A DNA stretch of 64,000 bases from Omphalotus guepiniiformis. Lineage: Eukaryota > Basidiomycota > Agaricomycetes > Agaricales > Omphalotaceae. The DNA lies in contig JAQOOI010000021.1 of the NCBI GenBank assembly GCA_028554645.1, forward strand, positions 1 through 64,000, given 5' to 3'. Positions 32,115 through 58,577 of this stretch are shown piece by piece (position 1 is the stretch's first letter; the number at the start of each line of letters is the position of its first letter). Below the pieces are notes generated by a model that ran no database searches, was not told the DNA's origin, and saw nothing but the letters and a program-made list of their open reading frames with translations. The translations under genes were made by a program, and so were the position numbers.

Positions 32115-32244
32115 TGGGCCGCAAAAAATGTATATAGCACTACAATTATATTTGCTTCTGTCAATGGTTCGCGCTTCCTTGACAATCTGTTCTTTTCCAC
32201 CCGTTCGACCGCTATATTTTTGAGATGTAAATGTAACGAAACAA

Positions 32245-32891: not shown

Positions 32892-35800
32892 TTATGACAA
32901 TGCGTCAACTATATGCATCCATAAGCCCTCCTGACATTTACCTTCATTTGCTTGAAGTGTACCTCCATCTTGGGAGCTCTGTTGTGAACTTGCGGACGCG
33001 CGGGAAGTCGACGTAGAGGGTTCACGAAGGAAAGGGTTGGTGACTTTCGGTTTCGGTGTCACTTTGCCTGGAGGTTTACGAAGGAAGGGGTTGACAGTTC
33101 CTGGAGGGCCAGCTAGCAAGCAAGGTATCAGTTGTATGATCGAACCGAGGGGAAGAAAATGAAGCTCCGTACCGATGCCTGACGTCACGGCCCCAGCTAT
33201 AACAAAAAGTCCTGTTGCTAAGACACAACTCAAATGATGCTGGGATCGATACGCACCAATAGGACGATTCATTGCAACGCTAGAACGAGAAGCTGGTTGA
33301 ACAGCCACTTGAGACGTCGCACCAATAGGACGATTCATTGCAGCGCTAGAACGAGAAGCTTGTTGAGCAGCCACTTGAGACATTGCTTGAGGAATTGCAG
33401 GGTCCAAGTGGTTTGAAGATCGAGATAATCCAGATGACGAGTGATGAACGAGAGGTGCATTCGTCGCAGACGAATGATCAAGGTTCACGCTACCTGCGGT
33501 GTGATGTAAGCTCGTCCTCCTTGAACTTGGCGGCGGTTGACTACGAGAGTCACCCCTTGCGCTAGATCTAGCGGGACCGACTGCGATCCGATGACTGGGC
33601 AACAGGTCTGAACACACAATCAGTACTCCGTAATATATATATGTATCAATTACTTCACCTGGCCTTCGTCTGGGCGCTCGTTTGGGCAGAGGACTATCCA
33701 CAGAAGAATCCGAGCTGGACAGATCTTGATTTACCGACGACGTGCTTTTTCGAGGAGGTGAATTACCAAACAATTCCTGGTCGTAAGCGTCCCCGTTGCC
33801 TGTTGGCATGAAGTGAATCAATGAATCAATGGATCAGAAAGCACGGGAACCTACCGTCCAATCCAGATATGCCATCCTGGGGTTGCCTTGCTGCATCGAT
33901 GGATTGTTGGTGGATCATTGGGTCTGTTCCATCCCAGTCCCTGTCCGATATTACCATCCCGTCTGAGTCAGAAGTGGCGCCACGAGGCTCTTCTCCGTCC
34001 TGCGATAAACCGAGTCCCTCTGTGTCGATCATTGCACCACCACCAAGTCCGTCCCCATCTGATATGTCCATACCGTCCGTATCAGTGGTAGCGCCACCAA
34101 GTCCGTCCCCATCTGATATGTTCATGCCGTCTGTGTCAGTGGTTGCGCCTCCAAGTCTGTCCCCATCCGACATGACCATCCCGTCTGTGTCGGGATCTGT
34201 TGAAGCTGCCGCGATATTTCTATCTGCGATGTCGACGCCGGATGTGGATGGGTCGTTTCCTCGCTGATTTTGCGATTCCGACGCACTGTCGACTGCAACC
34301 TTTCTCTGCCTTGACTGTCGACCTGTACTCTGCCTCTTCTTCCGAGGGGCTTGCTTTTCGGCATCGACGTCCTGAAGTTTTTCGCCGTCGTCATCATACC
34401 CAGCCTTGCCACTGAGAAGGTCGCGAAGCTCTAGTGCAAAAATGAGAAATAGGAAAAGCTGAAGTCAATACAGCACGTACCCTTTCCTAGCTCCTTATTG
34501 ACAAATGCCTCGAACATCTCTTCTTTTCCCCGGGCCATGTTGCTCATTAGGATGTCCGATGAATTGCTAGCCAGCAGATAAATACACTTCACAATCGATT
34601 TCTGGGGTTGCCGGTGAGCCCGTCCTCGGATCTGGCGTTCATCCTGGGCACTCCATGGTTGATCCTGTCGCAATTGTAACATTAGACAATATTTGTCAGA
34701 CTGTATACCATCGATACTCACAAAGAATATAACAACATCAGCAATTGCTAGATTCAGTCCGGTAGTACCGATACTCGAGAAAATGAAGACTCGAGGGCTC
34801 CCTGGCTGATGAAACTCTGTTACAATCTTGTCACGTTTCTCGAAGGTGAGGTTGCCGTCAATACTTAGAGTGTCGACACCGTGAAGTTTGAGGACCTGTA
34901 TAAAATCATTCACGAAACGCTCGAGGATGGACAGACAAACAAAACACGGCCGCACGTTTCGAAGTATCCCATGCATCAAGGGAAATTCAGCATATATCAG
35001 GACTTTCCTTTCCCGCATAACGCCTTCGCTAGGGCGAGGGTCGAATTCCGGAAATACGAGTTTCCCATCTTCGAAATCAATGTCCGGAACATCATCCCGC
35101 CTGAGATACCATTTGCATATCTGTGCACATATCTCCATCTTCGTGGACTTCAAGGGCTCCCACTCGGCAAGCGTGTTGAAAATGGGATTGGGAGCATTCA
35201 CATCAGCCTTTGCGTAGCCTACAGCCATACGATATTCCAAATAAAATTTCTGGATGACGAAATGTCAAAAGCAAATCAAGATACCGAGATGTGTCTTACA
35301 TTTGTGAGAAATTTACCGGTCTCATTGGCGGATATGATTCTGCAGAGCAAGCTCATTGTGACAATCATATCTCTGGATGAAATAATGCAACACACCTAGC
35401 CTTAGCCTCCTCCGCTCGTTGCTGGATTATCTCATTCTCACGTTCCGTGAGCTCAAGCACTCCGACAATGTCTTTGTGCGGAGGGAGATCGAGAAGACTT
35501 TGTCCTCTCCAGTTACGACTGTCAACAGTACGTCTGAGAACGGAGCCATAGAACTCTCTCTGAATTCGTCTGACAGCTGCGATTTGAGCTGTACGCAAAG
35601 CAAATCCGTCGTCGTCCATCTTCTTCGCGCGTCGAGCTTCTGCCGCATGTGCCTTGCTCTCATCGTGTGACCGTTCAGTATAAAAATATGGAACGCCAAC
35701 TAGACGTCCTAAAGACTCTAAATCCTGCTCCGGTTGAGCTCGCAAATATAAATGCACATTTATATCACTTACTCTAGGAGCCGTCGTCAAGGGCGTGCCA

Positions 35801-37890
35801 GTTAGCACCAGTCGCAAATCGGTACGCTTCAAGATATGCATCGTCGCATATTGCTTTGCCCCCAAGTTCCGCATTTCGTGGGCTTCGTCTATCGTCACGG
35901 ACAGAAATCGCTCTTGAAACAATGTGCCTTCAGGTGAACGTACCTGCTGAGCAGGGTCCCATGGGCGCCGACCCCGTTCAGTGGGTACTCGAAAGATGCG
36001 CTTGAATTCGTTCAATAGTGACTTAGTCATGTTTGAACCGCATCGATAAGTGATCGTAAAATATCAACATAAATACTAACCACTCACAGAATGAGTTGTA
36101 ACAATAATCTTATTTTGAGGACTCTGCTTGGATTTGTGAAATATTCCAGCGGTGCCCCAGAAGGTAGAGTCTCCGTCCTTCTGAGCATTGTACTCGAAGA
36201 TGTCGATGCTCTTTGGTAAGAACAACATTTGGAGCTCGTGAATCCACTGCGCGCGCAAAGTTCCAGGCACCACGATCAGGTGAGGAAGTGGTGTGAGTGT
36301 CTCTTCTCCTCCAAGAAACTTGTGGGTTCCTACGTGGAACGATTCGGCCATGAGTCAGAAACTGAACAGGATCAATAAGGAATTCAGACTCACGAAGAAG
36401 TGGCGGAAGATTTTCATTTTTTGCTTGCAAGAATGTGACTTGGTTTAAGAATGCTATCGTGGAGATACATAACGTGGTCTTGCCTAATCCAACTTCGTCA
36501 CAGACAAGTATTCCATGATTATGAACCGCATCGGAAGTCTTTGTGAACGTATTCCTGATGATAGAGTGAACCCCGGCCAGCTGGTGCCAGTGCAAGCGTA
36601 GCGGCTCAACAGAGCCATCCCCGGGAGGTTTGAAGAGGTCGGGGTGATTCCACGCCGTGAATCCGGATTTGTGACGAAAAGTATTGAACTGATGAGGCAG
36701 GCGCTGGCGGATGAAACCCAGACTCTGCGCAAGGGCATCTGGATCGAGCAAAGCCTCCACCTCCATCCCAAGGTCACCCGCTTCGACATCACGGAGGTTA
36801 AGCGTTGCACGATCTTCATCATCGATTGCCGGGCGCTCGTCGTCCTCGTCAAACCGAAAATATTGGCTATAGACATGGAGAAGTTCCACGAGGTCCTCCG
36901 CCGTTGCCAGCGTCCTCAAGATCTTCTGATTTACCCTGAATAGACCTAAAAATTGTCACTGAATGAAGCACATCCCAACAACCACGAGTATGAGAAACAA
37001 CAACAACATACGTTTTTCGGAAACGGTTTGAGACTGAGGTACCTTCGCCCCCAGGGAGTTCATGAGACGGTTCAGCTCGGAGAGCATGTCGTTAGCACTT
37101 GAAAGATTCTCTGGTGTGCCGTAGATGTCTGCGATATCTTTCCATTTCGCGACAGCGCGTATTGCGGAGATGATCTTGGCTTTGGTGACTTTTTCAGCAT
37201 CGAGCGCTTAAATTCCAAGTTGTAAGTTAAGGACAACTGAGTGTGTAGTACGAGAAACGCACCCTCAAATGCTGTTTGAGCCGCAGCCTTGAGATCATCA
37301 ATCCTATCCCTGTCCTTTCGCACCTGATCGCGAATTCGTGCCCAGGATCGTTGCGCAAATATGGCTAAGGGTTTCCTAAGCTCTTGACTGAGCCTTATGC
37401 TGTTATTAGCGAAGGCCTCTATGCCGAAGAGAGCCAGTGCGATGCTGTCAGCGGCAATAGGAACCCATAAATCGGCGATGGGCCAGGGACCTTTCAACGA
37501 GCCTTGACCAACAAGGAGGGAGATCGGATGAACATCGTGTGCTCTAAGGGCTGTAACGATAAGATTGTGAATGCCCCACTTCTCCCAGTTTTTGAGGACG
37601 AAATTAGCCCATATCTTACGCCCTGGATATTCAGCATTACCCTGGCGCGCAACGGCAAACTTGATCTTGCTCTCCTCAGAGTCACGCCGATTGTACTCCT
37701 GGAAATACGATAACACATCGTTAGCATCTCTGCGACTCCAACCTTTCGGCAGGTACTCGTCTTCGGGAGGAAAGAGACCGTGGGTGACATGTGTGAGTTC
37801 TTGCCACACAGGCCACTCCCAGGGTGCTCCTGGCGTATCATCCAGAAAATAGAGCTTGATTAGAGCACTAGCAGCGGTGTGACTTGGCAT
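32892..37890 (-). CDS. SNF2-family ATPase with long repetitive C-terminal tail, copy 1
   Basis: Start MPSHTAASALIKLYF at 37890; many short introns. N-terminal domain of about 330 aa, then the helicase: motif I CDEVGLGKTTLCIST (near 36490), motif II TIDEAHEMRN (near 35880), motif III LVLTGTPLTTAP (near 35800), motif V GTTGLNLAIADVVIFF (near 34740) and motif VI QIRGRAHRQPQKS (near 34610). This is an SNF2-like double-RecA translocase that would use ATP to move on DNA or remodel nucleoprotein. After the motor comes a non-globular tail: an 18-residue repeat DTDGMxISDGDGLGGATT (54-bp period, 34045-34200), a duplicated QxASRSSxAMNRPIGA segment and NPFLR repeats, ending VDALS at 32892. An in-tail intron (GTGAAG..TTCAG near 33605-33660) and a 24-nt exon near 33180 are likely. 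Divergent from protein C across a palindrome. All motor motifs are intact. Confidence 0.85.
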
Positions 37891-39021
37891 CGAATCGAAA
37901 TGTAGCACAGAGGAGAGATTAGGGAGAGGTTAATCGATTGAATGGTATATTTATGAGGAACAGTTTCTAACAACGATGCAAAATTTTTCGTAGAAAAAAA
38001 AACTACGACCCACTCGGTCCGACATGTGATTGCAGAGCAATGGAAACTAGCTTTGCACGAGGCAAAGGCCTTTGAATACATCGACGAGACATCAATGAAA
38101 TAGGGCGATGCAGCGCATGCCAGATCTACAATCCATTCTCTTTCGCTAGGAAGAAGTAATGGATTAGTGGGTTAGACAGTTTATCAGTTGAACGCGATTG
38201 AACTTACGAAGAAGATGAACAAACAAGCAGTCGCAACTAACACCCTAGTATTGCGCAATTGTTCGAGCGCTGGGCCACTAGGAAATTATTAGCCATCTCC
38301 GTTGATTTATCACACATTCAGAACTTACAAGGAGCGCCAGAAAAAATCATGTTCACATATGTTTTAGGGGATACACAGTAGAATTCGTCGAAGACGAAGA
38401 GAACTCTTACACATGGGGATTGTGCACGTTCCGGGTACATACGATAGCATTCGTCTATGACAAATGGGACAAAATCTAGGTCGACAAATCAGGAGTAGGA
38501 GAATAACATAGTCGAATGGGAATGAGGCGAAGACTTCGTCTAAGACGAATGGGGGAACATGATGGATGCAGCCAAAAGTGTAAGATAAGAATTTGTCTAC
38601 GCCGAATGGGAGGACAATCCAGATCAATGGGGCAGGAGCGATAGAGGGAGAACCGTATACCGAAGTCCAATGGAAACGAGGCAAAGACTTCGTCCTGGAC
38701 GAATGAGGCGAACGTGACGATGCAGCTAGGGCAAGATAAGGATTTGTCCACGACGAATGAGAGGGTGACCGGATCCACGAGCAAAAAATCGATGCAGGGA
38801 AAGGGCAGGTAAAGGGGTATAGCGAACTAAAGCTTAGTTCCGAGTAGACGTAGGCGAATATCGTATTGAAAACATGTAAAAGCACGAGGGTAGATGAATA
38901 AGCTGTAAAAGCAATTTGAATTGAATTTTGGAAAGCTTCCTGTTAGGCATAGATACCAAGCATCTGGAGGAATATCTTTAGAGCAAGAAGAAAAACTATT
39001 GGGATTTTGCGATGATGAGGA
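37891..39021. promoter_or_regulatory. Upstream region of SNF2 copy 1 with a row of dyads
   Basis: Contains six dyads in 0.4 kb, most followed by AATG: near 38375 TTCGTCGAAGACGAA, 38450, 38535, 38591, 38690 TTCGTCCTGGACGAA and 38744. I see no gene; the minus frame 38364-38885 translates the array. Confidence 0.55.
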
Positions 39022-40608
39022 ATGGCGTAAGAATAGGACTTCGTCCACGACGAATGAGGTGAGCGTGATGAGGCCAGAGCAGATCTACGGGTCCGGAGAA
39101 TTCGACACACAGTGTCTGGAAGCGAAAGAGGAAAGGTAAAGGTACAAGACACGAGGCTAGCCAGGAGAACACGCCGTATGGGCAAATTTCGAATTCTAGA
39201 GTTCGTCCGGCGAGGCATGAATACGGTCATCTGAATGAAATAAAGAAATTTCAGAAAACGTGCTCAGAAAAATATGCTTGTGCGAACCTGAGTGAATACA
39301 CCGCCGTACGCGAAACACCTGCTTGGAAACCCTCCATCCATCCATCGATTGATTACGCCGTCCGACTACATCGCCTGAGGTTAATAGGGCCAATGAAAAA
39401 GAGAGCAAAAAAAAAAAAAAAAAGTACATACAGGGCTATATGTACGCACTAACCATATGGGCACAGCACCTATCGATCGACTACACCTATGCTTGAAGCA
39501 AGAAAACAGTGAGAACGAACTGAAATTGAGAAAGACATCAGACTAACCGAATCCGAATCCGAAGGAAGGATCTCCGACACAACATGCGCAGATGCCTTGA
39601 GCGTATCTCAAGGCATGCCAGTGCACGAGGGTGACCTATACCACTGCGCTACCCAGAGCAAATCTCTGGGTAGCGCTATGTGGAAGAGCGGACGCCATAC
39701 CCAGAGCAAATCTCTGGGTATGGGTGAAGAGCGTGAGGAGCGCACTTCGTCGTCGACGAAGCCGCAGTTACGCCACACAAATATTTACCAGCAGCCTCAG
39801 ATAACAAATATTTGGGATGATCACGTGGTTCGACGACGCTGCTGGTAAATATTTGTGTGGCGTAACTGAGGCTTCGTCGACGACGAAGTGCGCTCCTCAC
39901 GCTCTTCACCCATACCCAGAGATTTGCTCTGGGTATGGCGTCCGCTCTTCCACATAGCGCTACCCAGAGATTTGCTCTGGGTAGCGCAGTGGTATAGGTC
40001 ACCCTCGTGCACTGGCATGCCTTGAGATACGCTCAAGGCATCTGCGCATGTTGTGTCGGAGATCCTTCCTTCGGATTCGGATTCGGTTAGTCTGATGTCT
40101 TTCTCAATTTCAGTTCGTTCTCACTGTTTTCTTGCTTCAAGCATAGGTGTAGTCGATCGATAGGTGCTGTGCCCATATGGTTAGTGCGTACATATAGCCC
40201 TGTATGTACTTTTTTTTTTTTTTGCTCTCTTTTTCATTGGCCCTATTAACCTCAGGCGATGTAGTCGGACGGCGTAATCAATCGATGGATGGATGGAGGG
40301 TTTCCAAGCAGGTGTTTCGCGTACGGCGGTGTATTCACTCAGGTTCGTACAAGCATATTTTTCTGAGCACGTTTTCTGAAATTTCTTTATTTCATTCAGA
40401 TGACCGTATTCATGCCTCGCCGGACGAACTCTAGAATTCGAAATTTGCCCATACGGCGTGTTCTCCTGGCTAGCCTCGTGTCTTGTACCTTTACCTTTCC
40501 TCTTTCGCTTCCAGACACTGTGTGTCGAATTCTCCGGACCCGTAGATCTGCTCTGGCCTCATCACGCTCACCTCATTCGTCGTGGACGAAGTCCTATTCT
40601 TACGCCAT
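39022..40608. repeat. Near-perfect palindrome 1, arms about 772 bp, 42-nt spacer
   Basis: Left arm 39022-39795, spacer 39796-39837, right arm 39838-40608. Matching pairs sum to 79630-79633 along the whole arm, so only a few single-base indels separate the arms. Near the tip each arm carries TTCGTCGTCGACGAA (left near 39747) and CACACAAATATTTACC; the spacer holds CAAATATTTG and CACGTG. Each arm contains three perfect hairpins: 39593-39615 (stem TGCCTTGAG), 39649-39675 (stem GCTACCCAGAG) and 39696-39724 (stem CCATACCCAGAG), all with GAGC-NNA-TCTC loops. It separates the divergent SNF2 and protein C genes and is likely to be their shared regulatory region or a recombination product. Confidence 0.95.
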
Positions 40609-41060
40609 CCCAATGGTTTTTGGGGGTAAATCTTCCGACCACTCTTTGCCTGGAGGAGACTCTTCCTATATCGAATTCTCTAGGTTAGGTTCATTGATCT
40701 TATCGCCTCAGCCTTATCATTCAGCTCATTCGTCGTGGACGAAGTCTTATCATTACGTTCCCAATGGTCTTAGGGGTGAAGTCTCATCCTCGTTGTGGAC
40801 AATTTGTCCCTGCTCACCCTGATCATGGTGTCCTGATCTGATGTGATTTCTCTTTCATTCGTCCTAGACGAGTACGTCTTGGTGGAGAATGTTTTTCTTT
40901 GCTTCTGAGATGCTCCGAAGTTCCTCTCCGATGCCATTTTACCCCATTCATCTTAGAAAGGTCATATCGTATGCTACATGGAGCGTGTAGTGTCTTAGTT
41001 TGGTCAATTGATGGTCAATAAATTTGTGTGCTTCCTGAAGTTGCACACCCTAACCCCTTC
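40609..41060. promoter_or_regulatory. Leader region of protein C copy 1
   Basis: Between the palindrome and the start codon. Contains dyads near 40577 (in the arm), 40727 TTCGTCGTGGACGAA and 40858 TTCGTCCTAGACGAG. Confidence 0.45.
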
Positions 41061-43737
41061 ATGAGCTCCTTGTATTCTGATCTTCCACCCAAGTCGTACT
41101 CTCTACGCGAGTACCTCCACCTTGTGAAGCAGCTGGAGGAAATCGAGAGTCCCGAATTTTATCGAGTTCTGCTCACCGGTGAAGTTGTCGCTGATGCTGT
41201 TGAAGAAGGTGATGAGCATCAAGTATCCCTTGACCTCACTCGCAATACCCTTCCTCGCAATTATAAGGTGGATCTCATCAGGGATTACGATTCAGTCATC
41301 GGAATCACGCAGGACATTGTCGTGGACACTTTCATTTCTGTCTATCCTGTCCCTAACCCCGCCGAGGTCTTGACGTCGAGTATCCATATCAAGTATCCGG
41401 TTCCAGTTCAGAATGTAAGTGTTGCAGTCATGCATAACCCCTTAGCTCTAATTACACGTATACCTGTGCACAGGGCCACGAGCGCGTTCCTGTTCATCAT
41501 ATCCCAAACTTTCAGCTCGCGTTCTGGGGCTCACGACACATGCTCCACATTTTCTTCCCTACCCTTGCTGCGGAAGGCCATCGTAAACGCCCTCTGACAG
41601 AGGAGCATCTCTCAGCGTTTTACGAGCATGGTCTCCGTCCCGTCATTAAAGACTCCTTACCTGGAGACGTTTCTGACTGGCCCCCATCGTACAAAGCGGA
41701 GATCTTCCGAGCTAGGAAACGGACTGGCCACATGGCGTATCAGACCAAACTTCTACCTGCCTGGCTACTTCCAGGGCTTGCAAATGATATTCGCCAATCA
41801 CTAGACGACAACGGTGCTGAGTGGGCACGAGATTTCTTCTTTGTCCACACACTACGGGGTACCAAAGGAGGTTCGAGGCATCAACGCGAGTCTGCACAGG
41901 ATGCGTTGGAAGAGTTTTTAGCTCAATCGGACATTCCGATGAATGCGACGCAGTCGGGGCAGTGGTGGATAGATGTGGGCCTCGAATTATCTAGTGCCAC
42001 GGGCGACTGTTTGCAGTGGGCGACATCCTCACACTTCCACATTGTCCAGGAGCTGCTGCAGATCTCTGAAGACAACGCCAGTCGTATCACTAGTCTCGGA
42101 AGCTCCAAGTACTACCGCGACATTGCCAGCCATCTCATGGCTGTATCAGGTTGTAGGATTGAACCTGGACAACGTGCGGCGAGCCCATTCGAAGCTTGCT
42201 ACTTCCAGATGTATACTACGGATAAGGCTGTGACCTATAACCCAGAGGGCCGCTATCATGGGAAGGCGATCACGATGAGTGCGGCAATGGGGAAGACTCA
42301 GCCTCCTGAGTTCGTCGAGGGACTGTTCAACGCATACATAGCAGCCCTCAAGGAGAGTCCATCCAATGCCCGTGTTGAAGCTCGCGTGCCTATCGCACAT
42401 GCCACAACTGTTTTCATCAACTTCTCCAATCGCCTTATCCGTCGCTCCCTTTTGATGGTCAGGAAGTCTGAATGGTGGTACGTTATCATACTTTCTGTTC
42501 AGTAGTAGCATATTAGCTCATATGTGTATGCAGGAATTTTCGAGCGTATCGTGTGTCTGCTATTAGACATATTCTTATGAGTCAAGCGTCGGGCAAGCCA
42601 GACTTTCGCGTTCATCCAGCTGCGCTTCTTCTCACTGCGGCTTGCGTCTGGCTAATCAACGGGCTTCATTCACGCCCTGATGACGGTTCGGCAGCACGTA
42701 ATCTCATGCGGGCAGTGCTACTGCTCACGAACGCTGCAGAGCCCGATCCATACACCCTACTGTATCCTAAGAGTGGCGGGGACGTAGACGCCCCAAACAA
42801 TCGCGAGGACGAGGAGAGTGACGAGGAACTTTATGTAGTACCGTACTGTCCGTTCGGAGCAATCTTCCTGCGCCGAATCGTTATTGATGTCGACGTTCCG
42901 CGCATGAGAAAAGGTGGCTTTTATCTTTCGTCCTCCGCCTTCCAGTTCTTTTTTGGTGGCACAGAACAGGAAATCCGGGACAGATACACATCCATAGGAA
43001 TTCTTTCGAAGAATGCGGTAGCTAAACGTCGTGTCGCCACCAACAAGCTTTTCAAGACACCTCTTGTACCCCCTGACCCCTCTCACGCAGTGCTCTTCAA
43101 TGTCGAGGCCCTTGGCCATGCACTTCCCCCTGCAGCTGTTGACTCAGGTTCTGATGACGATCCGGATCTCTCCGGGGAGGAACGAGAACGTCAGCCTGAG
43201 GGCCTTGATCAACATCTCTCCGACATTTACCGCCAGTTTCTCGTCGACGTTGTCATGAAGAGCCCCAACCCCAAAAGCGCGTCATTGGCATCGTATTTCA
43301 AGCTCACGAAGGCCGAACGTCTTGCAGTTACTGATGAGACGTATCAGAACGACTGTCTTTCAGACTTATGGCGTGCGTGCCGCTGGAAGATTGGAACGCG
43401 GGGCGAGTTCGAAACCGTTTTCAGTCATCTCTTCCCGGTGAAGGGTCACGAAACGACGGCGAAGGCTCAGAATTATTCGCAGTGCCGATACTACATCATG
43501 TGGAAGACCATGTGTGTCTCCGCCACTCAGGAGGCCGTGGACGATGCCCGTCGAGCGATCCATAAGAAGCTCTCGACATTCTTCTGGCTTCCACATGCTG
43601 CTCAAGATAAAATGTGGGCTACTTCGCAGAAGGGTACTGGCTTTACACATTTTCCTCCTGGTTCATCAGGGCCGTCACCACGTATCTTATGTCGTGGATA
43701 TCCAAATGTCAGAGTCGCTGAAGAAGTAGTCGAGTAG
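41061..43737 (+). CDS. Lineage-specific 853-aa protein (protein C), copy 1
   Basis: Start chosen at MSSLYSDLPPKSYSLREY (41061) because copy 2 begins MSMDALYSNLPPKSYSL; an upstream in-frame ATG at 41028 is less likely. Exons 41061-41414, 41474-42477 and 42534-43737 give 854 codons with the stop. Notable blocks: DYDSVIGITQDIVVDTFISV, RKRTGHMAYQTKLLP, FFFVHTLRGTKGGS, SGQWWIDVGLE, SSHFHIVQELLQI, NPEGRYHGKAITMSAAMGK, RLIRRSLLMVRKSEWWNFRA, GLHSRPDDGSAARNLMRAVL, PYCPFGAIFLRRIVIDVDVP, and a C-terminal PHAAQDKMWATSQKG. No transmembrane segment or signal peptide. I recognise no domain; nuclear or DNA-linked function is inference from its SNF2 partner. Its 3' end is partly duplicated in the adjoining repeat. 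Confidence 0.85.
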
Positions 43738-44260
43738 TACATTGTTGTTAACAACGTTCCAAAATACAATTTCGTTTTCTGCCTAGCAGTATGTGGGATG
43801 AACGCTTCGTCTACGACGAAGTCTCGTGTGCGTCGTGTCTTTCCGCACTTTACTCCAAATGTCAGAGTCGCTGAAGAAGTAGTCGAGTAGTACATCTTTG
43901 TTAACAACCTTCCAAGTATCTTATGTCTTGGATATCCAAATGTCAGAGTCGCTGAAGAAGTAGTCCAGTAGTACATCTTTGTTAACAACCTTCCAAAATA
44001 CAATTTCGTTTTCTGCCTAGCAGTATGTGGGATGAACGCTTCGTCTACGACGAAGTCTTTCTGCACTTTTCTCCAAATGTCAGAACCTTTCAAAAATACA
44101 ATTTCGTTTTCTGCCTAGCAGTAGGTGGGATGAACGCTTCGTCTACGACGAAGTCTTGTGCGTCATGTCTTTCCGCACTTTTCTCCTGGCACAATGTCGG
44201 ATATGTTTCAAAAACAGTTTCTTTTTCTGCGTAGCAGTATGTGGGATGAGTGCTTTTGTC
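43738..44260. repeat. Tandem repeat 3' of protein C copy 1 with perfect dyads
   Basis: Imperfect units carry CCAAATGTCAGAGTCGCTGA (a copy of the last coding bases), GTTAACAAC, TACAATTTCGTTTTCTGCCT and the dyad TTCGTCTACGACGAA at 43806-43820, 44040-44054 and 44138-44152, with a decayed one near 44258. The unit therefore includes the end of the coding sequence, which shows the array grew from the gene's 3' end. Confidence 0.85.
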
Positions 44261-44287
44261 TATGACGAAGTCTCATGTTTCAAATAG

Positions 44288-44996
44288 CAAGTGGCCCTGT
44301 AGAGAAGTGGTCTATGTGCAGATTAGATTGATGGCACTCAATCTGTGCACAGGTTCGAGTCCTGTGTGGGTCAATCGCATGCGCATTATGAGCGTTGCTT
44401 CAATAATGTGTTCGCTTTTATTTTTTCATAGTAAATACAAATACTATCTCTTTGAAACTCAAGTGAAAGTGTGCAAAGTGCAACATATATTGATAGTAGA
44501 AGAGTCTCATTGTAAGTTTCTATCTGTGATCTTACAGTAGCAATCTAAAAAATGTTACATGCTGAATATGAGTGATCTTAATATGAAGTTTTCCAAGTAG
44601 CCTGAAAGAAGTCCATACAATTCAATCAACTTAGACTGTAGATTTCACCATCTGATTTCATAAAAGAAATGCTTGACCAAATAACATTGTTCAATTGTAG
44701 AGCTCAGAAAAAAAGATCAGTCCTTATGAGCAGCCAAAACAAGGTGATGCAAATGCAATAAACAACTGATCCACAGAAATTTGCACATCCTGAATTCATT
44801 TTATTCACTCTGGTCTGTCAGACTCAACTCACTCTGTGCACCCTAATCTGTCAGACCCTACTTGAACCCTACTCAGTTCACTCTGTCAGACCCTACTTGC
44901 ACACTACGCACTCTAGTCTCTCAGACCCTACTCAGACCCTACTCATCCTACCTTTCAGACCCTATCTTGGACCCTACTAGTCTCTAATAACCCTAA
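44288..44996 (+). mobile_element. tRNA-derived SINE-like element, long form
   Basis: Begins CAAGTGGCCCTGTAGAGAAG with a tRNA-like head: B box GGTTCGAGTCC at 44352-44362, preceded by an A-box-like TGTAGAGAAGTGG about 50 bases upstream and a CAATCTGTGCACAG arm. The body continues through AGTAGCAATCTAAAAA and a longer 3' part ending in repeated TCAGACCCTACT pentamer-like strings and CTAATAACCC. The same sequence in the same order recurs at 61152-61852; only the head and body (about 260 bp) recur at 58041-58304. No protein is encoded, so it would depend on reverse transcriptase in trans. Confidence 0.75.
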
Positions 44997-45013
44997 GTTA
45001 TTTTTTTAAAATA

Positions 45014-45897: not shown

Positions 45898-46072
45898 TGG
45901 TGCAATTTTTGTTGTTTATGGACGCTGTACAATTCCTTTTTAGCCTTTATTATTGACCTATTAAAACAAATACCTCATTTCTCTTCTCATGTAGTAATGC
46001 AGAAGTAAGACGATACTCTTTAACAATGGTTTATTAATTTTTAAGAACATACACTAAGACTGTAAACAATGA
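45898..46072. other. Short spacer between convergent genes
   Basis: AT-rich 3' region shared by the TET/JBP gene and SNF2 copy 2. Nothing else seen. Confidence 0.4.
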
Positions 46073-49000
46073 TCATTGCTCCGACTGTCTTCTACGAAAA
46101 GCTTTCAGCATATTGCTTTTGGGGGGCGAAAGATCTCGGTCCTCCCCCTGTGATGGGCGTCTTGCGGCAAAGGTAAGAGCAGGTTGGTGTATGTCTGAAC
46201 GGCATTTTTTTTAGAATTATTGGCAATTAATGGGAAAGCATATACCATTGTTACAGAGCATACCTTGGCTGCCATGAGGAGTTTTTACTGCTCGGGAGGA
46301 AGATGAGGCTCCACGATCATCCCTGACAAATGGATTTACGGGTTTTATCATAGGTGCATCTAGGGACCAATTCTAAGCTTAGCCTTATCCACTAAAGGGA
46401 TGGAGATAAATATACCTTCACGCCTTACATCCCCAGTCACCTGCGCAGAGAGCCTAGGCCCTTGAGCGATTCGCGCCGTTTGATTCACGGCGGTTTGATT
46501 CATCCCCTTTGCCCGGGATAAATCTACGGCCCTGCCATGAGACTTCACTCAAGGTGGATGAAAGACATGGTGTACCTTCACTAGAGCTAACTCGCCTTGC
46601 ATCTCGATTGAATATCCCGGTTTGACTATTTCGTGCGAATGGATTAAGTTGCCGTTGTTTCAGCTTAGAGAGATCTGTAACAAAAAGTAAGGGATCTTTT
46701 CGTTTACAGTGGGAATGAGCTGTGCCATACCTTCACTAGAGTTGACCCGCCTTACATCTGGATTTTCCTGGTGAGATAATGCTGCGGTTTGGGTACTGCG
46801 GGCAAATGGGTTGATTTGTTTGGGTTTAGGAGGATCTAATTTGGGATGATTAAACCTTCGTCTGTTCACCATGGTCAGAATATACCATACCATCCCTGTC
46901 CGGCGGTGCCTTTGATTGGATAGTGCGAATGAATGGGTTGCTTGCCTTCCTCTGCGACGAATCTGCAAGGGCTGCCTTCCTCTGAGACAAATCTGCAAGG
47001 GCTGCCTTCCTCTGAGACAAATCTGCGAGGGCTGCCTTCCTCTGAGATGAATCTACATGGGGGTTGCGGGGGTTGCCACCTTGCTCATCCTGAGCCTCCT
47101 GGTGGGAGGGTCTGACCGTCTGAATAGTGCGGGTGGATGAATTAGCTTGTTTTGGGTTAGCCACTACCTCTAGCATAAACAATAATGACGGTGATTATTC
47201 ATTGTCCTTTCACAGAGAAATCAGGGTAGGCCTCACCGGAATCAACACGTCTTCCCTCTTGGTGAGAGGGCCTTGGCCCTGAAGCATTCTGGGTTAAAAC
47301 CCGCTGTTTAGGTCGAGCTGAAGGTGGATTTACTGGTTTCACCATGGATGAAGGTGCCTTTGCTGTAAAGATGATGAGAAAAAATCATCACATGCCACAG
47401 TAAGTCATCACTGACCGCCCATCTGGTCGTTCTCAGGCCTCTTCAACTGGGAAACCTGCCCCTGAGTTGGAGCTGCATCCTCAACCTGACCACTCTGTGA
47501 TTGGTGAGGTAAAGGGTTGGAGGGCAATACCGGTTCTAAGAGATGGCCAGAGATTAGCTGGTGGGTATTAACGGTGCAATAGGGTTCGCACCATGTGTCG
47601 CACCATGTTGAGCAGACACCTTCCGCCTCCTCCCTTCTTTCCTGATTGGGGTGGAGGTCTGAGAGGGCTGATGGGCGCCAGTGGTGATCCGTGCACTGAG
47701 GGAAGCAGTGGGGGACATGGAAGTACGCCAGTAACGTGCTGTTTACTGAGTGTTGAGTGCAATGGTCCAAATTACAAGTATGCCATACCTGAGTGACCTG
47801 CTCGCAACCGTTTTGGGAGAGGGCTCTCAATTGAAGAGTCCGAGCTTTCCGGCGCTCCATATGTAGAATCCGGTCGGGCAGGGGATGCACCAAGGTTTTC
47901 TACCGGACTTTCATAATCATCTGGTTTAAAAAGAAAGGCCCTTCCTTTAATTCCATTTTTCCATTCATGTCACAACGCAACTCACCTTCCCCTGTTGACA
48001 TGCCGGTATGGCCCTCTGACATGCTATAATCGCCTGAATAACGGGAGGTCAAAGTGGGTATCTAGACAATGATTGAATACATGCCTTCTGTATCTGGGGG
48101 AATGCGCTCCAGACCATCGCCATCAGAAATATCCATTGTACTGGACTCCGGATCCAACCCAAACCCATCAGATAACCTGGTACCGTCAGAATCTGCGTTC
48201 ATGTTCACATCACCTGGATCGTCTGAGAAAGGCAACCCATCCATGTCGGCATCACTGTTCACTATGCCAGAATTCCCCAATACCTTCAACACCTCCAGGT
48301 CAGGATCAGCGGTCGGGTGTTTTCCTGAATCCTTCAATGCTTTCAAATGCCCCATGTCCGGATCAGCTGCCTCTGTGTTATCACCATGGGCGGCAGCCTT
48401 GGCTGCCACCACAGATGGTGCAATCTGGCGTCTCTTGGTGTTCTTGGTGCTCCTCCTCCTGGCCTTGGTCTGTTTGTCACGCAAGGCCTCATCCTCCTCC
48501 TCCGATGCTCCATCCTCCCTGTTCTCCTTTAGCATTTCATCATCATCATACATCACCTTACCGCTGAGGAGAGCCTGAAGTTCTGGCATGAGAGCATTAC
48601 TTGAGTATTGAATTTGTATAGGGAAAGCCCAACTTACCTCTACCGAGCTGCTTATTTACGAACGCCTCAAACATATCCTCCTTGCCACGAGCCATGTTGT
48701 TCATCAGAAGGTCTGAGGAGTCATTTGCCAGAAGGTAGATGCATTTGACGATTGATTTTTGCGGCTGACGATGAGCCCGTCCTCGAATTTGACGCTCATC
48801 CTGGGCACTCCAAGGTTGGTCCTACATCGGTTTACATCATTCATCACTGCTACCATACATAGGATGGAATGACGCTCACAAAAAATATGACCACATCAGC
48901 AATGGCAAGATTTAAGCCAGCGGAGCCCACACTTGAAAAGATAAAGATACGAGGGCTTCCAGGTTGATGAAATGCCGCTACCACCTTGTCCCGTTTCTCA

Positions 49001-52000
49001 TAGGACAGGCTGCCGTCAATGCATAGGGTATCCATGCCATAGAGTGAGAGTACCTGTTAACAAACGTTCATATTATGCTTATGCGTTACTCCTCAGAAAA
49101 ACACATACGTTTCGAAGTACTCCATGCATCATGGGAAATTCAGCATATATCAAAACTTTCCGGTCCCTCTTAACTGGCGTTTGTGGGTCGGGTCGATGTT
49201 CAGGAAGGACTAGCTCCCCGTTTACAAAGTCCACATCTGGAACCATATCATCCGTGAGGTACCACCTACACACCTGCGCACAGATGTCCATCTTGGTTGA
49301 CTTCAGGGGCTCCCATTCTGAAAGGCGTCTGAACACTGGATTGGGGGCATCTGGATCCGCATTCGCGAAGCCAACAGCCATCCTGTACTCCATGTAAAAT
49401 TTCTGCCGATGGAATAATTGATGTCAGCACATCATTTCATGGCATTAGGGTAGGGGTAAACGCACATTGGTTAGGAATTTGCCGCTTTCGTTGGCTGAGA
49501 TGATCCTAAAGGGATCCCATTTCAATGAGAAGGCATGAATGACATGGTAAACGCAGCCACCCACCTTGCCTTGGCATCTTCTGCACGTTCCTGAATGATC
49601 TTGTTCTCTCGTTCGGAGAGTTTCAAGACACCGAGAATATCTTTATGGGGCGGGACATCAAGGAGCGTCTGGCCAGTCCAGTTGAGGCTGTCGGTTGTAC
49701 GCCTGAGAACGGAGCCGTGAAATTGCTTTTGTATACGCCTGACTGATGCAATTTGCACAATCCGTAATGTTAGCCCATCGTCATCCAGCTTTTTGGCGCG
49801 TCGAACCTCCGCAGCATCCTCTCTAGCCTCCTGGATGGAGGCCTCTGTGAGAAAGTGAGGGACCCCAACTAACCTGCCCAGCGATACCAAATCCTGAAAG
49901 AGATATCATTGTCGAATTGAACACTGGATGGAGGCAAAATAGAGAGGGTTTACGAACTTTTGGGGCTGTGGTCAAAGGTGTACCGGTAAGGATCAGCTTC
50001 AAGTCGCCTTGCTTGAGAATTTGAAGGGTGGCATAGTGCTTCTTGCCCAAGTTTCGCATCTCATGGGCCTCGTCTATGGTCACAGACAGGTATCTCCTGT
50101 CAAAAATGGTGCCTTGAAGGGGACGCTTGCGCTCTGGAAGAACCCATGGCTCCTTGTTTCTCCCTGCGCTGGTGGTGGACTTGAAGACCAGCTGATATTC
50201 GGTCTGTAGCGCCTGAAGCCATGGTTAAGCATAATAGAGGGTACGGTAAAGACGTTCACCTACAGAATGAGTGGTGATGATGATTTTATTCTGCGGTCTA
50301 TGATTTGAGGATAGAAATGGCCCGGCGGCCTCCCAAAAATCGGCATTCCCAGTCTTTTTACAGTTGTACTCAAAGATATCGATACTCTTCGGACGGAACA
50401 GGGTCTTGAGCTCATGAATCCACTGAGCTCGCAGTGTTCCTGGCACAACAATCAGATGGGCCGAGGGTGTGAGCTTCTCCTCTCCTCCAAGATACTTGAG
50501 TTTTTCTGTAGCAGAACTGTCAGTCGTGGCATTCATGATGGAAGGAACCGTACCTAGAATTGGTGGAGGAGCCTCCCCGTTGACCTGTAAGTGCACCACC
50601 TGATTGAGGAAGGCCATGGTGGATATACACAGCGCAGTCTTCCCCAACCCCACCTCATCGCAGATCAACATCCCTGTGCAATGGTCAGAATCCGGTAAGG
50701 CCGTGAATGTATTGCGAATGATGGAGTGAACACCCGCTAGTTGATGCCAGTGAAGCCTTAGGCGTACAAGGGCCTTGTTCCCAGAGACGAACTCATTGCT
50801 GTCCCATGCCGTGAGGCCTGCCTGGTGTCGAATGGTATTGAACTGATGGGGGAGGCGATGCCGAATGAAGCCCAAGCTGCTTGAAAGTTGGTCAGGGTCC
50901 AATTTAGCCTCCACCTCCATTCCTAGGTCCCCTGTGCCCGCATCCTGAAGCCCCACAACTGCAGGGGGTTCTGCATCCATGGCAGGTCGTTCCTCATTCT
51001 CCGTCCTAAAATAGGCATTGTAGACGGTCATCAGCTCTGCCAGATCCTCTTTGGTGGCAAGATCCTTGAAAGCCTTCAAATTCACGCGGAAAAGACCTAG
51101 TTACAATGCAATTGAACGGTCTCATGGAGTGTGAAACATGGCATACGACGTACGTTTTCCAGCAGGTTTTGCACTGGGTACTTTGGCACCAAGACCATCC
51201 ATGAGCCGGTTAAGCTCCGATAGCATGTCATCCGCCTTCGACAGGTTGTCTGGGGTGCCGTAGATATCCGCTATGTCCCTCCATTTAGCAACGGCACGAA
51301 TCGTGGCTGTTATCTTCCGTTTGGTGAGCTTTCCGTCGTTCAAAGCTAAAAGCAGATGTGAGTATAATAAAGCACCTTATCAACAATGGGCCTTACCGTC
51401 AAATGCCTTGATGGCGGCCTCCTCCAACTTGGATATGCGATCCCTATCCTTGCGTACCTGTTCTCGAATACGCGCCCATGATCTCTGTATAAAGGCCGTG
51501 ACAGGCTTCCGAAAGGGAGTCGGGAGCACCTCACTGTCACCAGGGAAGGGCTCCGTACCAAATAGCTCCAGGGCAATGCTGTCAAGCGCCTTAGGGACGT
51601 ACGCATCCGCGCTAGGCCAAGCGTCCAAGTTGCGCTCATTCAGGAGAAGGGAGATGGGATGTATGGAGTGCCTTCTGAGGCAAACGACGATGGTGTTGTG
51701 TATGCCCCAACGCTCCCAATTCTTCGCAACATACGTCGCCCAGATCTTGCGGCCCGGAACTTGCTCACTTCCCTTGGAGGACACGGTGAACTTGATCTTG
51801 CTATCCTCCGTATCGTGTTCATTATATCGGTGAAAGTAGGAGGATACATCGATGGCGTCACTCCTGGACCAGCCTTTTGGTAGGAGGCGATCCTCTTCAG
51901 GGAACAGGCCGTGATGGACGCCTGTAATCTCCTGCCAAACTGGCCAATTCCAGGGTGCTCCTGGCTCTACGAAGAAGAGTTTGATGAGGGCACTAGCTGC

Positions 52001-52021
52001 TGTATGGGATGGCATGGGCAA
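46073..52021 (-). CDS. SNF2-family ATPase with long repetitive C-terminal tail, copy 2
   Basis: Start MPMPSHTAASALIKLFF at 52021. Exon order and motif order follow copy 1: ICDEVGLGKTALCIST (near 50655), TIDEAHEMRN (near 50070), LILTGTPLTTAP (near 49985), GSAGLNLAIADVVIFF (near 48900) and the conserved RGRAHR segment (near 48780). By eye the motor is roughly two-thirds identical to copy 1. The tail differs in sequence but not in style: SDGD-type acidic repeats (near 48120-48260), an SQRKAALADL decapeptide repeated four times (46965-47060, 30-bp period), NPFIR, NPFAR and NPFVR motifs, and a basic end MLKAFRRRQSEQ with stop at 46073-46075. Many short introns interrupt the tail and their exact borders are uncertain. 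Divergent from protein C copy 2 across palindrome 2. Confidence 0.85.
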
Positions 52022-52383
52022 ACGGGTGTAGAGCTTTCCCGCAGAACTCTCAATTTAAGATGAACGATGAGCCTTGGCCCAAGGCGGAAGATCTTGCAAA
52101 GCGATCAATACATGTTAAGGGGACAAACAACGCTGCATAGCTATTATTCTGCATGGGAACTACAGCATATGCCACCTTCCAGTGGGAGAAAAAATACATT
52201 AAAAGCATATGGGGGTAGAAGATCCAATCTGAACGGAGGTTTGTTGAGCATGGTGCTCAGAACCCTATGAAAAAGCCTACGGCGTAAGAGCCAGATAAGG
52301 CTTGTGAGGCCCAACTAAGCAACTAAGCAGGGGAGGGGCAGCGGGTTCAGCGGTTCAGGATGCTGCATAGGTAAGAAAGGGGA
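52022..52383. promoter_or_regulatory. Upstream region of SNF2 copy 2
   Basis: Between the SNF2 start codon and the palindrome arm. No gene; no dyad seen here. Confidence 0.35.
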
Positions 52384-53915
52384 TCCTGCAACGTTGCAAA
52401 AGGTACATCAGAAATTGGTATGCGCGATGTAAATTTCAACTCACTGATAAGGGGGTGATTCAACCCCTGCAATTGGATGTATACGCTAAATGGATTACAT
52501 CGATAAGCTAACCTAACCGATGGAAAGCAATTAGAGATGTAGCAACACACTTCAAGCAGCCAGTACCATGTTCTAGACGATCCTGCCTTCCAGAGTTTGA
52601 GGACAATGACCATCTCCTGCTGAAATTCGGTGAAACGCCCCACCCGGAGCTAACTCCAGGCAGGTATATCGTCCCGCCTGACTCGTCGAGGACGAAGGGG
52701 GTTGGGTTGGTTTGAAGGGGGCTGGCTATAAGCCTATGGTAGGGGTATATGAACGGCGGTCTCCCGGAAGATTGGGTAGTAAGCTGACCTGATAGCGATA
52801 GTGATACATAACCGACCCTATACATTGTAGATCCAATGTGCGGTCGGAGATACACCACCACAAGGCGGTTCCCGAGTACATCTTGTCCTCTGCTGAAATT
52901 CCGCGAAACGACCTGCCCGGAGCTAACTCCAAGCAGGTAAATCCTATCAACATCGGATAAGAGCGTGCCTAGAGCTAACTCCAAGCACGCTACGACCGAG
53001 CCAACGGAGGGGGAGAGACACAGAGAGAGGGAGAGAGTGAGAGAGAGAGAGGACTTCGTCGTGGACGAAGAAGAACAATAGACGCTTGATAGACGCTGAA
53101 GACTTGTGGGAAGATCCGCGCTCAGGTCAGCTGACCGGGAGTCGGGGGGGCTCGACTCCCGGTCAGCTGACCTGAGCGCGGATCTTCCCACAAGTCTTCA
53201 GCGTCTTAGACATCAAGCGTCTATTGTTCTTCTTCGTCGACGGCGCTCTCTCTCTCTTCCTCTCTCTCTCTCTCTCTGTGTCTCTCCCCCTCCGTTGGCT
53301 CGGTCGTAGCGTGCTTGGAGTTAGCTCTAGGCACGCTCTTATCCGATGCTGATGGGATTTACCTGCTTGGAGTTAGCTCCGGGCAGGTCGTTTCGCGGAA
53401 TTTCAGCAGAGGACAAGATGTACTCGGGAACCGCCTTGTGGTGGTGTATCTCCGACCGCACATTGGATCTACAATGTATAGGGTCGGTTATGTATCACTA
53501 TCGCTATCAGGTCAGCTTACTACCCAATCTTCCGGGAGACCGCCGTTCATATACCCCTACCATAGGCTTATAGCCAGCCCCCTTCAAACCAACCCAACCC
53601 CCTTCGTCCTCGACGAGTCAGGCGGGACGATATACCTGCCTGGAGTTAGCTCCGGGTGGGGCGTTTCACCGAATTTCAGCAGGAGATGGTCATTGTCCTC
53701 AAACTCTGGAAGGCAGGATCGTCTAGAACATGGTACTGGCTGCTTGAAGTGTGTTGCTACATCTCTAATTGCTTTCCATCGGTTAGGTTAGCTTATCGAT
53801 GTAATCCATTTAGCGTATACATCCAATTGCAGGGGTTGAATCACCCCCTTATCAGTGAGTTGAAATTTACATCGCGCATACCAATTTCTGATGTACCTTT
53901 TGCAACGTTGCAGGA
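52384..53915. repeat. Near-perfect palindrome 2, arms about 760 bp, 8-nt spacer
   Basis: Left arm 52384-53144, spacer 53145-53152, right arm 53153-53915. Paired positions sum to about 106299 from edge to tip. The tip reads GACCGGGAGTCG, then GGGGGGCT, then CGACTCCCGGTC. Each arm carries dyads: CTCGTCGAGGACGAAGG near 52682 and CTTCGTCGTGGACGAAG near 53053 on the left, their partners near 53230 and 53604 on the right. Three hairpins (near 52644, 52912 and 52975) have GGAG-CTAA-CTCC cores, and a GAGAGA tract lies beside the tip dyad. The arm sequence is unrelated to palindrome 1 but position and design match. Frames such as 53315-53791 plus mirror 52508-53191 minus and are not genes. Confidence 0.95.
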
Positions 53916-54580
53916 TTTGCATACCTATGCCATTCCAACCCTGCAGTTTAGCATGTCTGTACTGGCTAGGGTCTTAAAAAACTGGTACCGGGTTCACCGG
54001 GTGGATCTAACCCAGTGGGTGTATTCGCTTGTGCATATGGAGTGCACAGACGCTGACTTAGATAGCGAAGCCCATACCCCGCAGTACTCTCCATGAGGAG
54101 CATACCCGGCCCCCTTCTACATGAGCCGCATTATCTGGGTTGGGGCCCAAAACCTTGCCCGCTCCAGTACTGCCTACCCCTCCTCGTGGTACCCCTATAC
54201 TGCCTACCCCTCCTCGTGGTACCCCTATACTCCACCTCGCTTCCGGAGGAATTTATCCATGGCAGGCCTTGTTGGAGGAGAATTACCGCCGATTTGCATG
54301 CCAGAAGACACAGCCATCAGATATAGTCAATTTCATACACCCGCGGTTCCTGTTGAGCTATGGCTGCCAGGATTTGATCACTCTCCTGCCGCCCCCAACG
54401 TTAGTAAGGTTTACATGGAGCTTATGATCCCTTCTGATCTTTTTTTTCACAGGCATGGGGTCTTGTTTCTTTCTACCTATCATCTTTCAAAAAAAAAAAA
54501 AACTTGCATACTGCCTTGTAATACAATCTTAAATACAACGAATGTTTTCCCAATCCTAACCCCATCGCTCCTTCTGAATC
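53916..54580. promoter_or_regulatory. Leader region of protein C copy 2
   Basis: Contains a 30-bp tandem duplication (CTGCCTACCCCTCCTCGTGG..., 54172-54231) and an A13 run (54489-54501). The open frames here look like leader sequence; no family signal. Confidence 0.4.
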
Positions 54581-57277
54581 ATGTCCATGGATGCCTTGTA
54601 TTCCAATTTACCCCCAAAGTCCTACTCCTTGCGAGACTACATCCAACTGGCAAAGCACCTGAACAGCGCAGAAAGCCCTGAGTTCCATAGGGTCATGCTG
54701 ACAGGTGAGGTGGTTGGTGAGGCTGCTGGCGGTGACCAGGAGCATCAGGTGGTCATAGACCCCACCCAGAATATCCTCCCCGACAACTATCCCCTTACCG
54801 TGAGCAGAGACTATGATTCTCTCATTGGCATCACTCAAAACATCGTGGTCAACACATTCATCTCGGTCTTCCCTGTCCCTAACCCTGCTGAGGCTCTGAA
54901 ATCTAGCATTCACATTATGCGTCGTATAATGACTGAGGAGGTGAGTTTGACCTGGATGCTTGGCACCATATTAACGACTGACTTGCCATGCAGGGGGAGA
55001 AGGAGGTTCCCATCCACAGGATTCCCAACTTCGAGTTCGGCTATTGGGGTTCAAGGCATATGATCCATATCTTCTTCCCTGCACTTGCAGCTCGAGGCCT
55101 TCTGGGCCGTCCTCTGTCGGATGAGCACCTCGCTATATTCTACGATCATGGGCTAAGGCCTTTCGTCAAGGCCTTCCTTCCTCAACAGATCTCTGATTGG
55201 CCCGCCACCTACAAGTCAGAACTGTTCCGTGCCCGAAAGCAGAACGGTCGCCTGTCTTATGGGACCAAGCTAATACCTGTAGAGGTCTTGGATGTACTTG
55301 CCAATAACATCCGCCAATCCCTTGAGGCCTATGGGGCGGATTGGGCGTCTGATTTTTTCTTCATCCATACCCTTCGTGGTACCAAGGGAGGCTCTGCTCA
55401 CCGTCGAAGTGCAGGGGAGGCTGCTTTGGAGGACTTTCTGACCCAGGCCAACATACCTATGGTTGCAATCCAGTCTGGCGAGTGGTGGATTGATGTTGGG
55501 CTGGAGTTTTCCACTCGCAACCAGGATTGCCTCCAGTGGTCCACTTCATCCCATTTCCATGCCGTCAAGGAGTGCCTGCAGATTGGCGATGAGGATGCCA
55601 GCCGTATCACTCATTTGGGCAGCTCCAAATACTCCCGGGACATCGTCAGTCACCTCATGGGTGTTTCGGGATGCAGGATCGAGCCTGGAGCTCGCGCAGA
55701 GGGTCCTTTTGAGGCATGTTACCTGCAGATGTACTCTACGGACAAGTCTGCGACCTACAATCCGGAGGGGCGATTTCATGGGAAGGCTATCACAATTAAT
55801 GCGGCAATGGGGAAGGTCCAACCACCCCCTTTCCTGGAGGGACTGTTCAGTCTCTACACGGAATCCCTGGCGGAGAGTCCTTCAAATGCCCGCATTGAGG
55901 TACGGGTGCCAATCGGGCGAGCTTCAGCGGTGCTCACAACCTTCAGCAGCAGTCTAGTTCGACGGTGTCTGTTGGCTTTCAGACGCAGTGTGTGGTGGTA
56001 AGTCCCATTGTAAAGCCCCTAGATTAGTGAGCTGATATGACCCCTGATACAGGAATTTTCGTGCATACCGTGTTTCCGCCATCAGCCATGTCCTTTCTCG
56101 GCAAGGATCTGGAGCACCTGAATTGCGCGTTCGCCCCGCAGCTCTTCTTATGACAGCTGCTTGCGTTTGGCTGGTCAATGGGCTTCACTCACGACCTGAC
56201 GATGGTTCAGCAGCACGTAGCCTGATGAGGGCTGTACTACCCTTGACCAATTCAGAAGACCCTGACCCTGACACCCTCCTGTTTCCTGGACAAGGCCGTG
56301 GCGACCACAGTGAGGAGAGCGAAGATGATGAGGATGGCCGACCCCGACCCCGTTTCGAGGACTATATCCCCTACAACCCCTATGGCGTTGTGTTCTTGCG
56401 CCGTGTGGTTGTTGACGTTGATGTTCCCCGCATGAGGAAGGGTGGGCCATACCTATCCTCCTCTGCATTCGAGTTCCTGTTCAATGCTTCCGAAGAGGCC
56501 ATTCGGGACAAATACCTTACGGTGGGAATTCTACCTAAGGAGGCCATAGCAAGGCGTAGAATTGTCACCAACAAAACTCAGCGAACACCCTCTGTGGCAG
56601 CACTTGCTCTGCTCACGGATGAAACTCACCAGAATCTGTTTAACCTGGAAGCAGCTGGCCATGCTCTGCCCCCTCCTCCGGTTGATAGTGGGTCTGACAA
56701 TGAGGAGTTCTCGGAGGGAGGTGATGGAGGGTATGACCAAGGTCTGGATGCGGTGATCTCAGAGATTTATCGCCAGTTCCTGGTGGATGTGGCCATGAAG
56801 ACCCCTAATCCCCGAGGCGCTGCTGCTGCACCATATTGCAAGCTCACGGAGCAAGAGCGGCTTGCAGTGAAGGAGGAACATTATCTCAACCCCTGTCTTT
56901 CGGACTTCTGGCGTGCTTGTCGATGGAAAAAGGCAAATCGCCAGGACTATCAGCTTGCCTTAAGCCACATGTTTCCTGAGCAGGACCATGAGACTACGGG
57001 AGCCGTTCAGAACTATACCCAATGTCTGTACTATATGAAGTGGAAGCGGTTTGCCAAAAAAGCAAGCCCTGGGGCCTTCAACGCTGCTCGAAAGGCCATC
57101 GAAGCGAAGGTTCAACGCCTTGCATGGATACCACATGCTGGCCAGGACAAGATGTGGGCCACTTCCCAGAAGGGCAAGTTTGACGGCCGCTTTCCTAAGG
57201 GCAGTACGGGGCCTGCACCGCGTATTCTCTGTAAGGTTACCCCGCAATGGGAAGTAGATGAAAACCCCCCTGTTTAG
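54581..57277 (+). CDS. Lineage-specific 862-aa protein (protein C), copy 2
   Basis: Start MSMDALYSNLPPKSYSLRDY at 54581. Exons 54581-54940, 54994-55997 and 56053-57277 give 863 codons with the stop. The middle exon is 1004 nt, the same as in copy 1, and both introns fall at the same codons. Conserved blocks: DYDSLIGITQNIVVNTFISV, FFFIHTLRGTKGGS, SGEWWIDVGLEFSTRNQDCL, NPEGRFHGKAITINAAMGK, SLVRRCLLAFRRSVWWNFRA, HSRPDDGSAARSLMRAVLPL, NPYGVVFLRRVVVDVDVPRM, PHAGQDKMWATSQKG. An acidic linker follows residue 570 or so (DSGSDNEEFSEGG). No domain recognised. The open frame and conservation across two diverged copies suggest it has been under selection. A dyad tandem array begins 260 bp downstream. Confidence 0.85.
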
Positions 57278-57539
57278 TAGTTTATATTTCAATGAACATG
57301 ATACTTTTCTGGAACATAACGCCCATGTACTTTTCCTCATGATGTTGGAGACAATATTTACTATCTACCTGTCCACCTCTACCCATCCTGGAGGAACACT
57401 CGCAATCAACAAAAACCGAAGCAAGGTTTGTAAGTGTTCATGGTCTTTCGCAATCAACAAAACCGGAACAACGTTCGTGATTTACTATCTATCCTTCATC
57501 AACGATCAACACTCATTGTTCTAACAAGGTTTGGGGTTT
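57278..57539. other. 3' region of protein C copy 2
   Basis: Contains a local duplication (CGCAATCAACAAAA blocks near 57400 and 57448) that leads into the dyad array. Confidence 0.45.
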
Positions 57540-58570: not shown

Positions 58571-58577
58571 CATTGAC

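Follow-up and report, generated by a model that had tools for sequence, protein, structure and literature searches.

The first 64 kb of a 2.78-Mb contig of the basidiomycete Omphalotus guepiniiformis (JAQOOI010000021.1, here C20, in an assembly of 42.5 Mb and 80 contigs), hereafter the window, carry two modules, A and B, that share one core design. A gene for an SNF2-family ATPase is transcribed to the left, a long palindrome follows, and a gene for a protein here called protein C is transcribed to the right, towards a fixed terminus, followed in most cases by a CCC(C)TAA unit, the telomere repeat of this organism. The arrangement of SNF2 gene, palindrome and gene C had been proposed for both loci in a sequence-only reading, and it is borne out by splice models, Pfam domains and arm alignments. 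The letters A, B, D, E and F also designate the element subfamilies named in the genome.

The model for the SNF2 gene of module B (48062..52015, minus strand; ten exons) reaches left to 48062, compared with 46.1 kb in the initial proposal. Its spliced frame of 1146 amino acids is stop-free, contains the motifs DEVGLGKT, DEAH, LTGTP and QIRGRAHR, and matches the Pfam models SNF2-rel_dom (1.5e-22) and Helicase_C (1.2e-15); by both domains and its intact motifs, it belongs to the SNF2 family. Copy A (32892..37890, minus strand), with exons taken unspliced from the list of open reading frames (ORFs) and a protein match, has the same helicase motifs spread over separate exons. Protein C is encoded on the plus strand by three exons in each module, at 41061..41414, 41474..42477 and 42534..43737 in A (ORF and splice model) and at 54581..54940, 54994..55997 and 56053..57279 in B (splice model), the third exon including the stop. 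The resulting frames of 853 (A) and 862 (B) amino acids are stop-free, the middle exon measures 1004 nt in both, as previously noticed, and the two proteins are 64% identical over the initial 455 residues. Because nonsynonymous divergence (dN) is 0.30 with synonymous change saturated, both copies look under purifying selection; between A and F, dN is 0.08 and synonymous divergence (dS) 0.73.

Palindrome A (39019..40611) lies between the divergent genes, and its arms (39019-39798 and 39835-40611) agree at 99.1% over 780 nt. Those of palindrome B (52383..53916; arms 52383-53144 and 53153-53916) agree at 97.7% over 769 nt, and no other inverted repeat was found in the window at ≥95% over 100 nt. 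An inverted repeat separates the C and SNF2 genes at all nine loci inspected among 13 two-gene loci of the genome (A, B and F on C20, A and D on C60, B on C15, E on C17 and C61, D on C58). Arm identity is 99.7% over 621 nt in D and 99.5% over 397 nt in E. The D and E palindromes are 79.2% identical over 395 nt, and those of other subfamily pairs do not align, save A with F (206 nt, 81%); the palindromes evolve as pairs, with arms alike and subfamilies diverged. The F repeat is weak, with one 115-nt stretch at 99% and poorer ones around an 853-nt loop (60% over whole arms), and B-like copies on C31 and C35 have only one arm left. The centre spacer varies even among near-identical elements (220 versus 104 nt in D, 24 versus 149 nt in E).

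The palindromes are associated with short palindromic words that differ between clades. The word TTCGTCNNNGACGAA is located at 39746..39760, near the centre of palindrome A, with a mirror site at 39873-39887 and an outer pair at 39040-39054 and 40576-40590. Palindrome A thus holds four symmetrical sites, B one (53055-53069) and F none; many words of B reside in iteron-like direct repeats downstream of gene C (57454..58607, nine sites with ≤1 mismatch, spacing mostly 53-64 nt). The pattern TTCGTC, a strong-weak-strong middle and GACGAA occurs 34 times in the window (≤1 mismatch) for 0.02 expected, and TTCGTC-N3-GACGAA has 96 sites in the genome, compared with 5 for the reversed pattern. In hand-compiled lists covering 50 of these 96 sites, 46 lie within 5 kb of the start of a C or SNF2 match or of the shared terminus, the four distant ones being C17:491615, C17:595111, C20:24465 and C20:29119. 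In D and E, the word CGAGAGTNNACTCTCG has 28 sites (control 0), all between the C and SNF2 genes of seven elements, four per element, and within the arms in the four palindromes read (C60, C58, C17 and C61). In a scan for gapped palindromes, each of the two words ranked first in its own subfamilies (A and B, and D and E, respectively); in F, the three sites of the word are equalled by three of a shifted form. Since the repeat is present at nine of nine loci, with arms alike in diverged elements (largely decayed in F) and with clade words, the palindrome appears to be a kept part of the design, in line with the initial claim.

The two modules are real, whereas the notion of a duplicated pair gives way to that of a family comprising no fewer than five or six subfamilies. 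Genome protein matches number at least 60 for protein C and at least 86 for SNF2. Among the matches listed, 13 loci have both genes, divergent in every case: A, B and F on C20, A and D on C60, B and D on C15, D on C23, C41 and C58, E on C17 and C61, and an F-like one on C78. The remaining loci hold pieces of C only, and near-identical copies might in part reflect two nuclei of one strain. In the window, an SNF2 C-terminal fragment (62219..62858, minus strand) probably belongs to element F, the remainder of which lies about 15 kb away (SNF2 at C20:77891-80741 and C at 83175-85823). In F, gene C (L009, also on C63 and C78) is a single open frame devoid of both introns, which hints at an RNA-copied version; the F SNF2 gene, unlike its intronless neighbour, matches in separate pieces. 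On C78, two parts of C (residues 3-229 and 228-857, at 29970 and 144542) stand about 114 kb apart, as a result of a large insertion or a misjoin.

The pairing extends to other mushrooms. Lentinula lateritia has the closest relative of protein C found by protein search (52%), and the homologues (37 proteins by search, 40 with a profile) are, for those named, Agaricomycetes as read from their names. Among 37 SNF2 homologues retrieved with the N-terminal 410 amino acids, nine share a contig with a C hit, called by matching species and equal contig size, and this concerns eight of the 13 species having both; the other 28 are unlinked to C, a number of contigs being short. Four pairs bear neighbouring locus tags (VKT23_019929/019930 of Stygiomarasmius, C0993_012195/012196 of Termitomyces, C0991_009198/009199 and NP233_g8898/g8897). 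The sequence-only reading named two findings in other species that would make the arrangement a local coincidence, C homologues away from SNF2 genes and the absence of an inverted repeat between the two genes, and it withstands the first. Judged by locus tag, C is the second gene on a chromosome of Marasmius oreades (E1B28_000002) and the first on two scaffolds of Lyophyllum shimeji (LshimejAT787_0100010 and _4400010); the tags of the other homologues do not point to an end.

Element A runs from 28809 to 44994 by its similarity to contig C60 (99.5-99.9%), well beyond the bounds initially given for the first locus. Its right, C-side end is exact, and its left limit, which abuts CCCCTAACCCC on C60 and not in the window, is the mere stop of this similarity. 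The terminus, AGTCTCTAATAACC followed by CTAA as one telomere unit (44979..44996, plus strand), is common to element copies and occurs 29 times in the genome (control 0). Nineteen of these 29 sites run on as C(2-6)TAA and ten do not; two or more telomere units follow in four of the 19 (C19, C30, C51 and C60), and the single unit elsewhere could alternatively be the element's own end. Two terminus sites, C78:147489 and C79:497470, lie farther in, more than 88 kb away from a contig end. A further copy in the window (61837..61850, plus strand), perhaps the end of element B, has no telomere unit after it and stands behind an inserted 2.5-kb stretch (58578-61133); the same junction without this stretch is found on C42. 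The inserted stretch, which splits the region downstream of element B, has inverted ends of about 226 nt (84-92%).

Telomere arrays are present at seven contig ends (the starts of C23, C41, C58, C63 and C78 and the ends of C51 and C61). Protein C is encoded within 34 kb at six of these seven, and at the seventh, the end of C51, the shared terminus lies 4.3 kb in. On contigs above 800 kb, 11 of 12 C loci lie within 90 kb of an end, a clustering with p 6e-11 under uniform placement, although the copies are not independent. Several copies lack their distal part, and the breakpoints differ: for A they lie at 41952 (C67) and 42201 (C11), for B at 53912 (C42) and about 55834-55838 (C22), and for F at positions equivalent to C20:81617 (C63) and 81709 (C78 end). 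On C63, a telomere array is joined within the palindrome loop of an F copy. Two other repeats, with fixed ends ...GCGTGATCTAGGAGT (C67 and C78 end) and ...GGGCATAACTGGT (C22 and C42), are joined directly to cut copies (loci L025, L055, L013 and L018), as if they capped broken chromosome ends. In the window, short interstitial telomere repeats at 2047, 13689 and 14985 all have left-chromosome-end orientation, which suggests stacked former ends; one of them adjoins a degenerate inverted repeat (496-1849, pieces at 84-92%), possibly an old palindrome.

The predicted fold of protein C ranks Rep_trans first, and conserved D, D, Y and E residues, the putative catalytic D71, D287, Y367 and E422, follow the Rep_trans order, each on a separate predicted strand; motif IV, RxE, occurs in 28 of 28 protein C members. 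PF02486, the Rep_trans profile, is not among the Pfam matches of these 28 members and gave no match at E values up to 10 against the unspliced genome. The motif spelling also departs from Rep_trans, with [WYF]xD and YTTDK in protein C versus RxD for motif I and YxK or YxxK for motif III. No HUH or Helitron Pfam model matches protein C, and no reverse transcriptase match appeared in the element ORFs scanned, those of C, SNF2 and ORF3.

ORF3 (29376..31808, plus strand, 810 amino acids) has no Pfam match; its relatives (49%) adjoin D and E elements on the C side, versus the SNF2 side in A. Between elements A and B, an ORF of 180 amino acids (45355-45897, plus strand) displays a weak likeness to TET/JBP-type oxygenases (Pfam Tet_JBP, E 0.25 only). 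A 243-nt repeat, 97% identical between 44284-44526 and 58037-58279, with another copy after about 61150, contains by eye tRNA-like A and B boxes and looks like a tRNA-derived short interspersed nuclear element. At 16812-20097, open frames with a HILHQVSS-type peptide recur in a long tandem array.

Several known systems resemble parts of this design. Yeast Y' elements and telomere-linked RecQ helicase genes are multicopy, subtelomeric and adjacent to telomere repeats and carry a helicase-like gene. The present elements likewise occur in multiple copies at chromosome ends, next to telomere repeats, whereas they encode an SNF2-family ATPase with a divergent partner gene and a palindrome. Helitrons and Replitrons are DNA elements of eukaryotes whose copying is attributed to a tyrosine nicking enzyme of the HUH type, with a motor in Helitrons; there, the HUH nuclease is fused to a Pif1-type helicase, whereas here the SNF2 motor is separate and protein C has no HUH match. 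To our knowledge, telomeric parasites use reverse transcriptase or recombination, rolling-circle elements of eukaryotes use HUH enzymes, and no Rep_trans-type initiator has been known in eukaryotes so far. The fungal telomeric non-LTR retrotransposons MoTeR and FoTeR share the telomeric site, the fixed end joined to telomere repeats and the distal truncations. They encode a reverse transcriptase, for which the ORFs scanned here gave no match, whereas the present elements carry SNF2 and C genes with a central palindrome. For MoTeR, the portion of the source available describes interstitial telomere repeats at the fixed end and distal truncations healed by telomere (PMC7367193). The Rep_trans rolling-circle initiators (PF02486; pT181 RepC/RepD, RepSTK1) and archaeal Rep-Arvir are like protein C in predicted fold rank and in D, D, Y, E order, and their genes, too, adjoin a palindromic site whose word is specific to the clade. 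Protein C, in contrast, has about 850 amino acids with a family-less C-terminal half, lacks a sequence match and has a fungal host. Rep_trans appeared restricted to bacteria before an archaeal family was added, according to the portion available of PMC13107129.

The observations are best fitted by a selfish element of chromosome ends, which specifies the mobile or selfish locus imagined beforehand; the link to telomeres and a protein C that may be a nicking enzyme go beyond that reading. Whether these are telomere-resident selfish DNA elements of Agaricomycetes with a Rep_trans-like nicking and copying mechanism of protein C, an SNF2 motor and spread through telomere repeats is, in our estimate, evenly balanced. 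In such a mechanism, protein C would be a TBP-fold, Rep_trans-like tyrosine endonuclease binding the palindromic word of its own clade and nicking in or beside the extruded palindrome. The 3'-OH released would prime synthesis, either outwards to the end of the chromosome or around a circular copy, while SNF2 would act as a motor clearing nucleosomes or moving DNA at the nick. Telomere repeats would let new copies become fixed at other chromosome ends, either through integration or through break-induced replication, and copying across the hairpin would keep the arms alike. The bolder claim, of a telomere-bound eukaryotic element that this enzyme and motor copy from a long palindrome acting as origin, is put forward tentatively. 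The enzyme would be the first such initiator known in eukaryotes, and the palindrome might serve as a chromosome-end-forming site, given the telomere joined inside one on C63.

Break-induced replication alone could spread the copies and is the main rival for movement. The telomere-unit end, the distal-side cuts and the near-identical copies on different ends would be ordinary end repair, and break-induced spread has been described for MoTeR arrays in a fungus, in the portion available of PMC7367193. The elements would then be passive, like Y' or RecQ subtelomeres, with SNF2 and C serving telomere chromatin or persisting as a selfish pair and C being no nuclease. This account, which we consider rather unlikely, leaves unexplained the palindrome with matching arms at every locus inspected, the clade-specific palindromic words and the Rep_trans-like residue order in C. 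The constant divergence of both genes from the palindrome and the symmetrical words, present also in the repeats downstream of C, would suit a two-way control region that serves expression and not DNA copying, either through binding of C or of a host factor to the words, with both genes driven or repressed as a result, or through a hairpin RNA that silences sister copies; this is improbable, as a promoter would not need arms of 400-780 nt at 98-100% identity. That the palindromes are by-products of fold-back repair at subtelomeric ends, kept by chance near these genes, would agree with the differing centres and the decayed F, as for unstable DNA, and is very hard to reconcile with the same position in five subfamilies, the lack of a comparable repeat elsewhere in the window and the confinement of the D/E word to the intergenic interval.

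The Rep_trans-like nicking mechanism is readily testable, since a candidate enzyme, a candidate site and candidate catalytic residues can all be specified. If true, it would bring the Rep_trans fold into the third domain of life and add a third route for telomeric parasites, combining a Rep_trans-like enzyme, an SNF2 motor and a long palindrome at fungal telomeres. Mushrooms would thereby offer a natural system for palindrome-driven chromosome-end change.
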